From the NCBI GenBank assembly GCA_003166865.1, contig PMUP01000044.1, forward strand, positions 1-64,000: a DNA stretch of 64,000 bases. The letters run 5' to 3'. Under the pieces are notes generated by a model. The model was not told the DNA's origin. It saw nothing but the letters and a program-made list of their open reading frames with translations, and searched no databases. Of this stretch, positions 4,646-41,522 are shown one piece after another. Origin of the DNA: Bryobacterales bacterium (GTDB lineage Bacteria; Acidobacteriota; Terriglobia; Bryobacterales; Bryobacteraceae). Position numbers and translations under genes: made by a program. Position 1 is the first letter of the stretch. Each line of letters begins with the position of its first letter.

Positions 4646-5872
4646 ATGATCGCAACGCCCGCTTCGCCGTCTTTGGAACGGCAGTTACGAAATCGGCGCA
4701 ACTTTCTCAAGTTTCTCGCGGCCAGCCCACTGTTCGCTGCGATGCCGGCCGGCGCTTGGCAGACCCATACTCTCGATGAAGTGCTGGCCAATCCAAAAGA
4801 CGCGTTGGACGTGATGGATTTCGAAGCCGCCGCTCACAAAGCGCTGCCGCCCGCGCACTGGGGTTACATGGCCTCGGGCGTGGACGACAACGTGACGCGC
4901 GACGCCAACCACGAAGCTTACAAACATATACAACTCCGCCCGCGCAAGCTGGTGGATGTCTCCAAGATCGACACGCGCGTGGAACTCTTCGGAACCACCT
5001 GGGACAGTCCCATCTTCTTTTGTCCGGTGGGTGGGCAAGGGATGTTTAACGTGGACGGCGAGCTTAGCACGGCTCGCGCCGCTCAAGCCAAGAGAACTTT
5101 GCAGATTCTCTCGACGGCTAGTTCGCACAGTGTCGAAGATGTGATCAAGGCACGCGGCGGACCGGTTTGGTATCAGCTCTACGCGGTTTCAAACTGGGGA
5201 CTGACGGAGAAAGTGGCCAAGCGAGCCGAAGATGCCGGCTGTCCCGTGATGGCGTGGACCATCGATCTGCTGGCCGGCCGAAACACCGAGACAGCCTCCC
5301 GTTTGCGGCGCATCGACACCAGGGAGTGCGCCTCTTGTCACGGCGAACCGTTCAACTCTCACCGGCCGATGTACGATGCCATCGATATGAAAGGCGTCAC
5401 CATGAATTCCCCGGCGTTCACCTGGGAGCACGTGGATCGCTTGAAGAAAGCCACGCGCATGAAGTTGGTGCTGAAAGGCATCGAGACCCGCGAAGACGCC
5501 CGGCTGTGCGTCGAACATGGCGTCGACGGCATCCTGGTATCGAATCACGGCGGACGCGCCACCGAAACCTATCGCGCCACCATCGAGTGCCTGCCCGAAG
5601 TGGTGGACGGCGTAGCCGGCCGCATTCCGGTGATGGTGGATGGAGGCATCCGCCGCGGAACCGATGTTTACAAAGCTCTGGCGTTCGGCGCGCGCGCCGT
5701 GGGCATCGGGCGTCCCTATATCTGGGGGCTATCGGCGTTCGGGCAGCCGGGCGTGGAACGTGTGATCGATATTCTGCGCGGCGAGTTCGAGCTCACCATG
5801 AAGCAGTGCGGTGCGCGGTCGCTGGTAGAGATTACGCGATCGAGCGTGATGTACCGCGAAAACGCCTCTTGA
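4646..5872 (+). CDS. Tat-exported FMN-dependent alpha-hydroxy-acid oxidase/dehydrogenase with CxxCH motif
   Basis: A 408-residue member of the FMN-dependent alpha-hydroxy-acid oxidase family (lactate/glycolate/mandelate oxidases). A twin-arginine signal is visible at residues 17-22 (RRNFLK), so the folded enzyme is probably exported. The TIM barrel shows K277 and the catalytic SNHGGR block with H301 and R304, followed by the phosphate-binding VDGGIRRG and GRPYIWG. Residues 228-232 are CASCH, inside the segment corresponding to the mobile active-site lid, and read as a cytochrome c type heme-attachment motif. This would allow electron transfer to a cytochrome instead of oxygen. Substrate and heme attachment are inference. 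Confidence 0.85.
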   Translation: MIATPASPSLERQLRNRRNFLKFLAASPLFAAMPAGAWQTHTLDEVLANPKDALDVMDFEAAAHKALPPAHWGYMASGVDDNVTRDANHEAYKHIQLRPRKLVDVSKIDTRVELFGTTWDSPIFFCPVGGQGMFNVDGELSTARAAQAKRTLQILSTASSHSVEDVIKARGGPVWYQLYAVSNWGLTEKVAKRAEDAGCPVMAWTIDLLAGRNTETASRLRRIDTRECASCHGEPFNSHRPMYDAIDMKGVTMNSPAFTWEHVDRLKKATRMKLVLKGIETREDARLCVEHGVDGILVSNHGGRATETYRATIECLPEVVDGVAGRIPVMVDGGIRRGTDVYKALAFGARAVGIGRPYIWGLSAFGQPGVERVIDILRGEFELTMKQCGARSLVEITRSSVMYRENAS

Positions 5873-6566
5873 TAAAGACGATCCCGAGGAGGAAAAGACC
5901 GCCGGTCGCAATAGAGATAGATCCGGGCTCCGGCACGGGATTCACCTCAATCGAGACCGAATCCACCGACGCTGAATCAACGGGATCGGCCGCGAGGGTA
6001 ATCAGATATGGGTCGGTCGAGTTGGGGTTGAAGCCCAGAGACGACGAAAGAAAACTGAACGACAGATTCTCGGAATTTTGAAATCCGTCATCTGTCGATA
6101 AGTTCCTCGTGGATGTCTCGGCGCCGGAAGCAGCACCTGACCAGTATGAGTTGTCGGGTAGGAGCGTTGCTGGGTCGAAGGTAACCGTCGCGGCCGTCAC
6201 CTGATTAGTAATGGTGAGGGAATACGTGTACGCTGATAACGAATCGGTTCCAGTATATACCGAGAAGCTGAAATCCCACAGCGCGTCGCCTCCGCTAGTA
6301 CCCAGTGGAACGGTGTAGTCGTTGCTGCTCGGGGTTATCGGGCCCACGAAACGCTGGATTGCGCTCAGCCCAAGCTCCAAAGAGCTCCCATCGCTGTTGG
6401 TTGCATTGAGAACTGTAAAGCCTGCATTGACTCCACCTGTCCCGTTGTAGAAGCCCCCCGGAGAGCTAAGCGGAGCATCAAAGGACAAAGTAGATGCCGA
6501 CACGGGAGCGAGGGCACCGACGCAAACACCGGCGGAAAGTACTGCCAAGCACGCGAACTGCTTCAT
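5832..6566 (-). CDS. PEP-CTERM sorting-domain protein
   Basis: A 244-residue secreted protein from ATG 6566, where a signal peptide begins (MKQFACLAVLSAGVCVGALA, cleavage near VSAST); a longer frame to 6638 would bury it. The C-terminus carries VPEPGS, a hydrophobic helix (IATGGLFLLGIVFI) and an arginine cluster, the hallmark of proteins processed by an exosortase. The body is Ser/Thr/Asn-rich and beta-rich with no enzymatic motif. No exosortase gene is in the window. The last 41 bases overlap the convergent hydroxy-acid oxidase gene. Confidence 0.85.
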   Translation of the reverse strand: MKQFACLAVLSAGVCVGALAPVSASTLSFDAPLSSPGGFYNGTGGVNAGFTVLNATNSDGSSLELGLSAIQRFVGPITPSSNDYTVPLGTSGGDALWDFSFSVYTGTDSLSAYTYSLTITNQVTAATVTFDPATLLPDNSYWSGAASGAETSTRNLSTDDGFQNSENLSFSFLSSSLGFNPNSTDPYLITLAADPVDSASVDSVSIEVNPVPEPGSISIATGGLFLLGIVFIKRRFRGTSRSIA

Positions 6567-6676
6567 GGTAGCTACAACCTTTTCTGCCCCAAATGGAGGA
6601 ACCACGTGACGCTCCTCGATGGTAGCATCATGCGACACCCGTCAGACATATTCATCAGACTCGGTAGAATGAGGGA

Positions 6677-35982: not shown

Positions 35983-38124
35983 ATGGAACTCAGGAAGAAA
36001 CTGCAACGAATATTCATTCCAGCTGTGTTCAGCGCGATCTCGCTGCCTGGTCACGCCCAGACTTTCACGGCTGCTCAGGCTACCGAAGGCCAGTCGGGCT
36101 ACAGCCAAAACTGCGCTGGATGCCACGGCGGCAGCCTGGACGACGGGGAATTTGCGCCGCCCCTCAAAGGCACGGCCTTCTCACAACAATGGGGCGGCAA
36201 GAGTGTGGGCGACCTGTTCACCTACATCCGCACCAAAATGCCACCCAGCAACGCAGGCGGGCTGGGTGAACCGGCCTATCTTCAGATCACGGCTTTCATA
36301 CTTCAGTCGAACAATGTGTCGCTGACTGCAACGACGCTTCCGGGGGGCGCGCCCAGCGCAACCAGAGGCAGATCGCGCGCGCCCGCTCGTCCCTCGCCCG
36401 GCGGCGGGCTCTCGCCGTACGCCAGCCTGATTCCGGCGCCGCCCAAGCCCAATCCGCTCGACAAACTTACTCCCGTCACCGACGCGGAACTGCAAAACCC
36501 GCCGGCTGGCGAGTGGCTCACTTGGCGGCGCACCTATGATGACCAGGGCTTCAGTCCGCTCAAGCAGATCAACAAATCGAATGTCGCGCAATTGCGCTCC
36601 ACCTGGACTTGGTCGCTGCCACCGGGCGCCAACGAAGCGACGCCGCTGGTCCACGACGGCATCATTTTCGTACACAGCTCCGGCGACCACGTCCAAGCTC
36701 TGGATGCAGCCACGGGCGACCTGCTCTGGGAGTATTCGCGAGAACTGCCGACGCCAAAGACTGGCTTCCTCAATCTGGTAAAACGCAACATCGCCATCTA
36801 CGGCAATCACATCATCTTTGACACCTCTGACCTGCACGTGGTGGCGCTCGACACGAAAACCGGTGATGTCGCCTGGGAACACGAGGTTCTGGATCTCGAC
36901 AAGAATCCGCGTTTCGGGCTGACCGGCGGCCCGATCGTCGCCAAAGGCAAGGTGATCATCGGAACCGAAGGCCAAGGGCCGGGCGGCAATATGATCGTCG
37001 CTCTGGATGCCGCCACCGGCAAGGAAGCCTGGCGCTTCTACACCATCGCGCGCCCCGGCGAGCCCGGCGGAAATAGTTGGAACGGGCTCCCGCTCGATAA
37101 ACGCAGCGGCGCTTCGGTGTGGACCGCCGGCAGCTACGATCCCGCGCTGAACCTGGTCTTCTTCGGAACCGCGCAAACGTACGACACCGGGCCGCTGGTG
37201 CATCCGTCGACCGAACCCGGCGTTACCAACGATGGCCTGTACACCGACACCACGCTCGCGTTCGATCCCGACACCGGCAAGCTGGTCTGGCACTTCCAGC
37301 ACGTCCAAAACGATCAGTGGGATCTCGACTGGGCCTTCGAACGCCAGTTGGTGCACCTCAAAATCAATGGGGAGGATAATAAGCTGGTGGTCACGTCCGG
37401 CAAGGAAGCCTACTACGACGCCCTGGATGCGGCCACCGGCAAATATGCTTTCTCCATGGATCTCGGCATCCAAAACGTAATCGCGTCAGTCGATCCAGTT
37501 ACCGGCGCAAAGACCATCAACCATCAAGTTGTAATCGGCGACGGCGAGACCAAGACCGTGTGCCCGCACGCGGGCGGCGCCAAGAGCTGGATCCCTGGCT
37601 CGTTCAATCCCGAAACCAAGATCCTTTACGTGCCGCTCGTGGAGTCCTGCATGGATCTGATTCCGGTGGCAAAGGGCGAACGCGGAGGTCTGTCCTCCGG
37701 CGTGCGGTTCACGATTCGGCCACGCCTGGATGGCGACGGTAAGTACGGCCGCTTTGAAGCGATCAATCTCGAAACGCGCAAGCCGGTTTGGATCGATCGC
37801 CAGCGTGCGCCGCAGACTACCGGCGCGCTCGCGACCGCCGGCGGCATCGTATTCGACGGTTCGCTCGACCGCTATATTCGCGCTTACGACGACGCCAACG
37901 GCAAAGTGCTGTGGGAGACGCGCCTGAACGATGTTCCGAGTTCGTGCCCGATCACCTACAGCGTGAATGGCAGGCAATATGTTGCGGTGGTGGTGGGCAA
38001 TGGAGGCGCGCACGCCATCACCTGGCCGCCGCTGGTGCCGGAGATCCAGAATCCGCCCGGCGGCGGAGCGGAGCTGTGGGTGTTCGAGCTGCCGGAGAAG
38101 CCAGCTAATCAAAAAAGCCCCTGA
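35983..38124 (+). CDS. PQQ-dependent alcohol/aldehyde dehydrogenase with N-terminal cytochrome c
   Basis: A 713-residue quinohemoprotein. A signal peptide ends near GHAQT; the first domain is cytochrome c with CAGCHG (C44, C47, H48) and a likely axial methionine at KMPPSNAG (M86). Then a Pro-rich linker and an eight-bladed PQQ propeller follow (LDKLTPVTDAEL, WLTWRRTYDDQGFSPLKQI, HVQALDAATGDLLWEY, HVVALDTKTGDVAWEH, PHAGGAKSWIPGSFNPETK). Electrons would pass from PQQ to heme in the same chain. Substrate unknown. The heme-first order is less usual than a C-terminal cytochrome. Confidence 0.88.
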   Translation: MELRKKLQRIFIPAVFSAISLPGHAQTFTAAQATEGQSGYSQNCAGCHGGSLDDGEFAPPLKGTAFSQQWGGKSVGDLFTYIRTKMPPSNAGGLGEPAYLQITAFILQSNNVSLTATTLPGGAPSATRGRSRAPARPSPGGGLSPYASLIPAPPKPNPLDKLTPVTDAELQNPPAGEWLTWRRTYDDQGFSPLKQINKSNVAQLRSTWTWSLPPGANEATPLVHDGIIFVHSSGDHVQALDAATGDLLWEYSRELPTPKTGFLNLVKRNIAIYGNHIIFDTSDLHVVALDTKTGDVAWEHEVLDLDKNPRFGLTGGPIVAKGKVIIGTEGQGPGGNMIVALDAATGKEAWRFYTIARPGEPGGNSWNGLPLDKRSGASVWTAGSYDPALNLVFFGTAQTYDTGPLVHPSTEPGVTNDGLYTDTTLAFDPDTGKLVWHFQHVQNDQWDLDWAFERQLVHLKINGEDNKLVVTSGKEAYYDALDAATGKYAFSMDLGIQNVIASVDPVTGAKTINHQVVIGDGETKTVCPHAGGAKSWIPGSFNPETKILYVPLVESCMDLIPVAKGERGGLSSGVRFTIRPRLDGDGKYGRFEAINLETRKPVWIDRQRAPQTTGALATAGGIVFDGSLDRYIRAYDDANGKVLWETRLNDVPSSCPITYSVNGRQYVAVVVGNGGAHAITWPPLVPEIQNPPGGGAELWVFELPEKPANQKSP

Positions 38125-41033: not shown

Positions 41034-41243
41034 CTAACCGCGCTCTTCGATGTGCTTCAATCGCGCATCGAGCACTTCTTCCACGCGCCGCAGCTCCGCG
41101 CGCCACAGATCGCGCATGTCGTCGAAGCGCTTGTCGATGCCGTCAAATCTGGTCTTAAAAAGGGCAATGACGAGCCCGATCAAGGCGGCGTTGAACAATA
41201 TTGGGATGCCGATGGTGAGATAGAGCTGTTCGTTGGTCACCAA
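41034..41243 (-). CDS. Small membrane/coiled-coil protein, RFDDMRDLWR family
   Basis: A 69-residue protein starting TTG 41243 (or GTG 41240). One hydrophobic helix (LTIGIPILFNAALIGLVIALF) then RFDGIDKRFDDMRDLWRAEL and RRVEEVLDARLKHIEERG. It is the fullest copy of the family also seen at 22780, and the C-terminal block is nearly identical. It lies between the FAD oxidoreductase group and the aconitase X large subunit, 12 bases before the latter, so it is part of the same minus-strand operon. Function unknown. Confidence 0.68.
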   Translation of the reverse strand: MVTNEQLYLTIGIPILFNAALIGLVIALFKTRFDGIDKRFDDMRDLWRAELRRVEEVLDARLKHIEERG

Positions 41244-41296
41244 ATGAAGTGCGCTCCGCCTGGGACTATTCTCGCACAGGGCGTTAGTCCTCGATA

Positions 41297-41320
41297 TTCG
41301 TCTTCAGCCAGGATCATCAT
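41297..41320 (-). repeat. Duplicated start of the aconitase X gene
   Basis: The 24 bases at 41297-41320 match 41001-41024, the start of the aconitase X large subunit, at about 20 of 24 positions, including the ATG. Read on the minus strand the copy gives MILAEDEY against MILADDEK in the real gene. The copy frame closes after a further 18 codons. It lies between the two small membrane protein copies, so a tandem duplication of the 'small protein plus aconitase start' junction is the simplest explanation. Confidence 0.55.
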
Positions 41321-41522
41321 TCGCTTCCGGCCCTGCTCCCTGTGCCACCGGGTACATTTTGTCCCCTCCGAAATTCGGCTCTGCGGCGATTTCGACCCTC
41401 GATAAAGCGTTTGTCCCTTGCGCTGACCGTCTCTCTATAAACGCGAAGCCTAGCGCCCATAAAAGCGCGTTCCACAGCACCGGAATGCTGGCCATAAGGA
41501 AAAGCTGTTCGTTGGTCACCAT
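41304..41522 (-). CDS. Degenerate small membrane protein paralog
   Basis: A 72-residue frame starting ATG 41522 (TGATG overlap with the FAD oxidoreductase stop). The first 30 residues, MVTNEQLFLMASIPVLWNAL and LWALGFAFIERRS, match the N-terminus of the 41034 copy; both begin VTNEQL with nearly the same DNA. After that the RFDDMRDLWR block is absent and the sequence becomes unrelated (AEPNFGGDKMYPVAQG). Probably a decayed duplicate, though the frame is still open. Confidence 0.55.
   Translation of the reverse strand: MVTNEQLFLMASIPVLWNALLWALGFAFIERRSAQGTNALSRVEIAAEPNFGGDKMYPVAQGAGPEANDDPG

Follow-up and report, generated by a model that had tools for sequence, protein, structure and literature searches.

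The gene and its product

The window (the whole stretch of 64,000 nucleotides that was analysed) carries on its forward strand an open reading frame at positions 4646–5872 that encodes a protein of 408 amino acids. Residues 63–401 of this protein match the FMN_dh family in Pfam (PF01070; E 1.6e-114, 383 bits vs. a cut-off of 24.9). The features of the gene are the following.

4646..5872, forward strand: coding sequence of an FMN-dependent 2-hydroxyacid dehydrogenase of 408 amino acids with CxxCH in the lid and predicted Tat export (open reading frame; PF01070; relatives at 44–62% identity)
4694..4732, forward strand: Tat signal core R17-R18-NFLKFLAASPL (RR in 46/46 aligned N-termini; conserved RRxFLxFLAxSPL; Pfam TAT_signal sub-threshold)
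4856..4858, forward strand: codon of His71, candidate distal (sixth) heme ligand (H in 47/47 CxxCH members vs. 3/42 others)
4865..4867, forward strand: codon of Tyr74, equivalent to Tyr24 of glycolate oxidase and Tyr143 of flavocytochrome b2 (Y in 46/47; alignment to 5zbm)
5264..5266, forward strand: codon of Asp207, equivalent to Asp157 of glycolate oxidase, the residue just ahead of the lid (47/47)
5267..5422, forward strand: lid (loop 4), residues 208–259, variable (column conservation; low AlphaFold confidence)
5327..5341, forward strand: CxxCH putative heme c attachment motif C228-A-S-C231-H232 (47/47 in the group, 0/42 outside)
5474..5476, forward strand: codon of Lys277, equivalent to Lys230 of glycolate oxidase, FMN site (47/47)
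5546..5557, forward strand: His301-GG-Arg304, catalytic base and Arg for the substrate carboxylate (47/47 each)

A preliminary description of this DNA had reported a CASCH motif in the active-site lid of a protein with a twin-arginine signal, and had proposed that the motif binds heme c. The codons of the reading frame bear out the motif (tgc gcc tct tgt cac at nucleotides 5327–5341, residues 228–232). It lies between strand beta4 (T205-x-D207, where D207 aligns with D157 of glycolate oxidase) and W260, which is loop 4, the active-site lid, as had been claimed. The N-terminus, RRNFLKFLAASPL, likewise has the Tat pattern.

Using Pfam, we found neither a cytochrome c domain (PF00034/PF13442) nor a Cyt-b5 domain (PF00173) in the 408 amino acids; the CxxCH motif stands alone, and the N-terminus consists only of the signal and a short linker. 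The AlphaFold2 model has a mean pLDDT of 83.9 with a confident barrel, in which most blocks exceed 90. Confidence is low in the lid (pLDDT 52–87 in the blocks covering residues 211–260), where residues 228–232 are modelled as a short helix, and modest in the segment of H71 (68–73 for residues 71–90). Foldseek ranks 5zbm and 1gox highest (E down to 3.4e-35), and the solved structures closest to the protein in both sequence and fold are those of glycolate oxidase, long-chain hydroxyacid oxidase and lactate oxidase.

Three further reading frames were observed in the window. A PEP-CTERM-type exported protein (VPEPGSISIATGGLFLLGIVFIKRRFRG) is encoded on the reverse strand at 5832–6638; its reading frame is convergent with the hydroxyacid dehydrogenase gene, whose final 41 bases it overlaps. 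On the forward strand, positions 35983–38124 encode 713 amino acids with a Sec-like leader and CAGCH near the N-terminus, which resembles an exported cytochrome c-containing enzyme. A shorter reading frame at 41052–41405 contains CSLCH.

Conservation and origin of the CxxCH lid

We sampled homologues from related loci, from relatives ranging from genus to class, and from 396 genomes of the phylum. With one exception (locus L081), CxxCH occupies the same site in every relative that covers the lid and is matched by tblastn at E below about 1e-95, whereas weaker matches lack it. In an alignment of 89 sequences, the lid motif is present in 47/47 members of one group and in 0/42 other FMN_dh proteins, and none of these 42 has a CxxCH anywhere in its sequence. 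The group was defined by the motif itself, yet its members also form one side of a single branch (SH-aLRT 95) in a tree inferred without the lid, the N-terminus and column 71. On this tree, the presence of the motif requires one change, compared to 29.8 in shuffles. A chance occurrence of CxxCH is thus ruled out by the 47/47 against 0/42 and by the single branch, and the CxxCH lid is, as far as these sequences tell, the result of one gain. Absence of the motif from close homologues had been named as a refutation of the heme proposal; instead, it is invariant throughout a well-supported group.

The 47 members have a minimum pairwise identity of 42% (median 51%) and span four phyla: Acidobacteriota, Gemmatimonadota, Myxococcota and Pseudomonadota. 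The motif is therefore not restricted to Acidobacteria, a possibility that the preliminary description had suggested checking: the members, which carry an export signal (RR in 46/46), also occur in Gemmatimonadota, Myxococcota, Alpha- and Gammaproteobacteria. The distribution is patchy: we counted at least 22 carriers among the 396 genomes of the phylum, and the best matches from the window's own genus (the four other genomes) lack the CxxCH lid. The nearest sequence outside the group, that of L081, has the same Tat signal and neither CxxCH nor H71. A further member, with 49.6% identity, CTDCH, PPAHYGY and an RRKLL signal, is located on a megaplasmid of Methylobacterium bullatum; its gene (L110, 8001–9233) is unannotated, and this cultured genus would suit experiments.

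A second subfamily was noticed at loci L075–L080 and L082 (e.g. L075, 1528–2643); its lid follows the pattern CQxCHxH...RPM and its N-termini are longer. An extra CPDCG motif between the signal and the barrel is present at two of these loci, L075 and L078.

Four invariant residues and an intact active site

The lid is otherwise variable, and C228, C231 and H232 are its only invariant columns. From D207 to W260 it has a median length of 57 residues in the group vs. 53 in non-heme relatives, so no extra domain has been inserted; the spacing from D207 to C228 is 21 in 36/47 members. The two residues between the cysteines vary (AS, GD, VV, IK, EV and others), whereas the histidine directly after the second cysteine does not vary. 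At the level of sequence, this combination is a match to the heme c pattern.

Over the whole protein, C228, C231, H232 and H71 are the only residues that never vary within the group and are also rare in the other proteins. His71, three residues N-terminal of the catalytic Tyr74, is present in all 47 CxxCH members compared to 3/42 others. Two cysteines, His232 and His71 are the ligand set that a bis-His heme c requires, although there are no ligation data. H71 is thereby a candidate second axial ligand that adds to the evidence of the preliminary description. The association of H71 with CxxCH counts as one evolutionary event because the group has a single origin, though it has been kept in all descendants seen. 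The methionine of an RPM motif after CxxCH was also considered as the sixth ligand; as it is conserved in only 66% of the members and missing from those of Gemmatimonadota and Myxococcota, it cannot serve this role in general.

The catalytic set Y74, Y179, D207, K277, H301 and R304 (Y24, Y129, D157, K230, H254 and R257 in glycolate oxidase numbering) is retained in 46–47 of the 47 members at each position. Position 129, the Ala/Gly position often associated with O2 reactivity, is a mixture of G, A and S in the group.

Predicted export, proposed heme maturation and gene neighbourhood

The twin arginine is invariant in the 46 group members with an alignable N-terminus and is followed by the conserved pattern RRxFLxFLAxSPL; the Pfam TAT_signal model remains below its threshold (14.9 vs. 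22.7 bits). Based on the twin-arginine motif ahead of a hydrophobic segment, we predict that the protein is a Tat substrate. Since all readable N-termini have this signal, the CxxCH motif is expected to reach the compartment where heme c is assembled, and export by Tat implies that the barrel has taken up FMN and folded beforehand. An A(G/A)SPL core after the twin arginine is common to many non-heme Tat-type FMN_dh relatives (L046–L059, L081), where its conservation is above what is usual for signal peptides.

Cytochrome c assembly proteins (PF01578) were detected in 29/29 carrier genomes tested; without a set of non-carriers, this result is necessary for heme attachment but does not discriminate. 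The combination of Tat export and heme c is unusual, because System I maturation is described as acting on Sec-exported chains (PMC6962350). Heme attachment to an exported, folded protein is nevertheless plausible given three precedents. The purified bacterial synthase CcsBA depends on both thiols and the histidine of a CXXCH peptide and can do without the adjacent helix (PMC8112865), non-cytochrome shell proteins with a CxxCH placed on their surface received heme, albeit after Sec export (PMC6962350), and in the magnetochromes of MamP and its relatives 19–28 residues around CX2CH are enough for a mono-heme c unit (PMC3971196).

We found no redox-partner or electron-acceptor gene conserved across the neighbourhoods of 34 loci, and the idea of a conserved redox-partner operon was thus rejected. 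Only at L091 (genome G028) is a cytochrome c directly adjacent: a mono-heme protein of 107 amino acids with a signal peptide and CASCHG is encoded directly upstream of the CxxCH dehydrogenase (5621–5944, forward strand) and has weak Pfam matches to PF13442/PF09098. This small cytochrome c is a possible electron acceptor of the dehydrogenase.

Proposed function and alternative explanations

We propose that the CxxCH-bearing FMN_dh proteins are single-domain flavocytochromes c, because the four group-specific invariants correspond to the two thioether cysteines, the proximal histidine and one more histidine. To this reading we assign a probability of about three in four. Sequence, conservation, single origin, co-conservation of H71, intact catalytic residues, fold and signal type are direct observations on which it is built, and from them we infer the heme, its ligation, the electron path, the order of maturation and the substrate class. 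The barrel would fold and load FMN in the cytoplasm as a TIM-barrel 2-hydroxyacid dehydrogenase and would then be exported via Tat. One heme c would then be attached to C228 and C231 in the flexible lid by the periplasmic machinery for cytochrome c maturation, with H232 as the proximal ligand. H71, in the N-terminal segment beside Tyr74, would probably act as the distal ligand and would hold the lid with its heme next to FMN. Oxidation of an L-2-hydroxyacid, with H301 as the base, would reduce FMN, and the electrons would leave singly through the lid heme, accepted by a periplasmic cytochrome c or by the quinone pool and not by O2. We lean only slightly towards the more detailed version, in which the mobile lid is the heme carrier, heme is added after Tat export, and closing of the lid by a bond between H71 and the iron couples turnover to electron exit.

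Several points count against a single-domain flavocytochrome c. There is no spectrum or heme stain, Pfam recognizes no cytochrome c domain around the motif, a distance between H71, H232 and FMN is lacking, and the model is of low confidence in the lid as well as in the segment of H71. Furthermore, no acceptor gene is conserved alongside, the pairing of Tat with heme c is unusual, and the single origin reduces the link between H71 and CxxCH to one event. The main and most serious rival is a structural zinc site, where C228, C231, H232 and H71 hold the metal and staple the lid to the N-terminal segment of an ordinary oxidase or quinone-dependent dehydrogenase. Exactly two cysteines and two histidines are invariant and group-specific, which fits Cys2His2 too. 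However, adjacent residues such as C231 and H232 rarely bind the same zinc for steric reasons, zinc knuckles seldom have CxxC followed directly by histidine, and the Tat signal points to an oxidising periplasm, where reduced cysteine–zinc sites are uncommon; we thus consider zinc unlikely.

A regulatory or structural disulfide between C228 and C231, tuned by His232, would suit an exported protein, in which CxxC is a typical disulfide substrate, but it does not account for H232 and H71 being just as invariant (47/47) as the cysteines, and we regard it as very improbable. Both zinc and a disulfide are thus less likely than heme, although neither is excluded. Heme c might also be present for another purpose, either O2/H2O2 chemistry, to remove H2O2 that the flavin generates, or sensing, instead of relaying electrons. 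Flavin oxidases of this fold do produce H2O2, and the mixed residues at position 129 do not assure low O2 reactivity; yet H71, as an invariant candidate sixth ligand, would close the open heme site that such chemistry needs, which makes this use of the heme quite unlikely. Overall, the interpretation given in the preliminary description is supported, with heme binding itself remaining an inference.

Comparison to known flavoenzymes and heme proteins

The protein shares its whole fold and its catalytic residues with glycolate oxidase (1gox/5zbm), lactate oxidase and long-chain hydroxyacid oxidase (1tb3). These aligned oxidases differ from it in having no CxxCH and no heme and in being reoxidised by O2. 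In its proposed working it is similar to flavocytochrome b2 (L-lactate:cytochrome c oxidoreductase), where an FMN barrel passes electrons through a heme relay to cytochrome c. It is not a flavocytochrome b2, however, as the latter binds heme b non-covalently in a separate N-terminal cytochrome b5-type domain (PF00173), which is missing here. In flavocytochrome b2, Tyr143 contacts a heme propionate of the docked heme domain, and the barrel face near Tyr74 is therefore a known meeting place of heme and FMN. The heme of flavocytochrome b2 docks at Tyr143, which corresponds to Tyr74, and H71 lies close to that place here.

Nor is the protein a classical cytochrome c, as it has no such domain. Flavocytochrome c sulfide dehydrogenase, p-cresol methylhydroxylase and fumarate reductase Fcc3 are exported and combine flavin with heme c. 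These classical flavocytochromes c hold the heme in a separate domain or subunit and have other flavin folds, whereas here one barrel would serve for both. Magnetochromes, though minimal heme c units, form a separate small domain in magnetosome proteins and not the lid of a flavoenzyme. In (S)-mandelate dehydrogenase and LldD, loop 4 is likewise the place of adaptation to the acceptor; there it is a membrane segment without a heme motif, and electrons go to quinone. Mandelate dehydrogenase is characterised by a longer loop 4, and a survey covering 122 proteins of the hydroxyacid oxidase class uses cytochrome b5 domains and a long loop 4 to tell acceptor variants apart, with no mention of CXXCH in its main text (PMC8491902). 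In the open full-text literature we found neither a CxxCH-bearing FMN_dh enzyme nor a CxxCH lid described; subscription papers were not covered. The enzyme belongs to the known family of FMN-dependent 2-hydroxyacid dehydrogenases, and its lid motif appears to be undescribed in that open literature.

If heme c is present, one barrel of fewer than 400 residues does the job of the two-domain flavocytochrome b2, and an exported single-domain enzyme could feed the respiratory chain rather than make hydrogen peroxide. Electron transfer from flavin to heme would then rest on a new architecture, the barrel would offer a compact enzyme for direct electron transfer, and the case would show how an electron outlet could evolve through a few residue changes in the lid. 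The protein makes cytochrome c maturation on an already folded, Tat-exported protein testable, and would, if the proposal is true, be a natural case of it. In at least four phyla, genes that automatic annotation would label as hydroxy-acid oxidases would then encode respiratory dehydrogenases.
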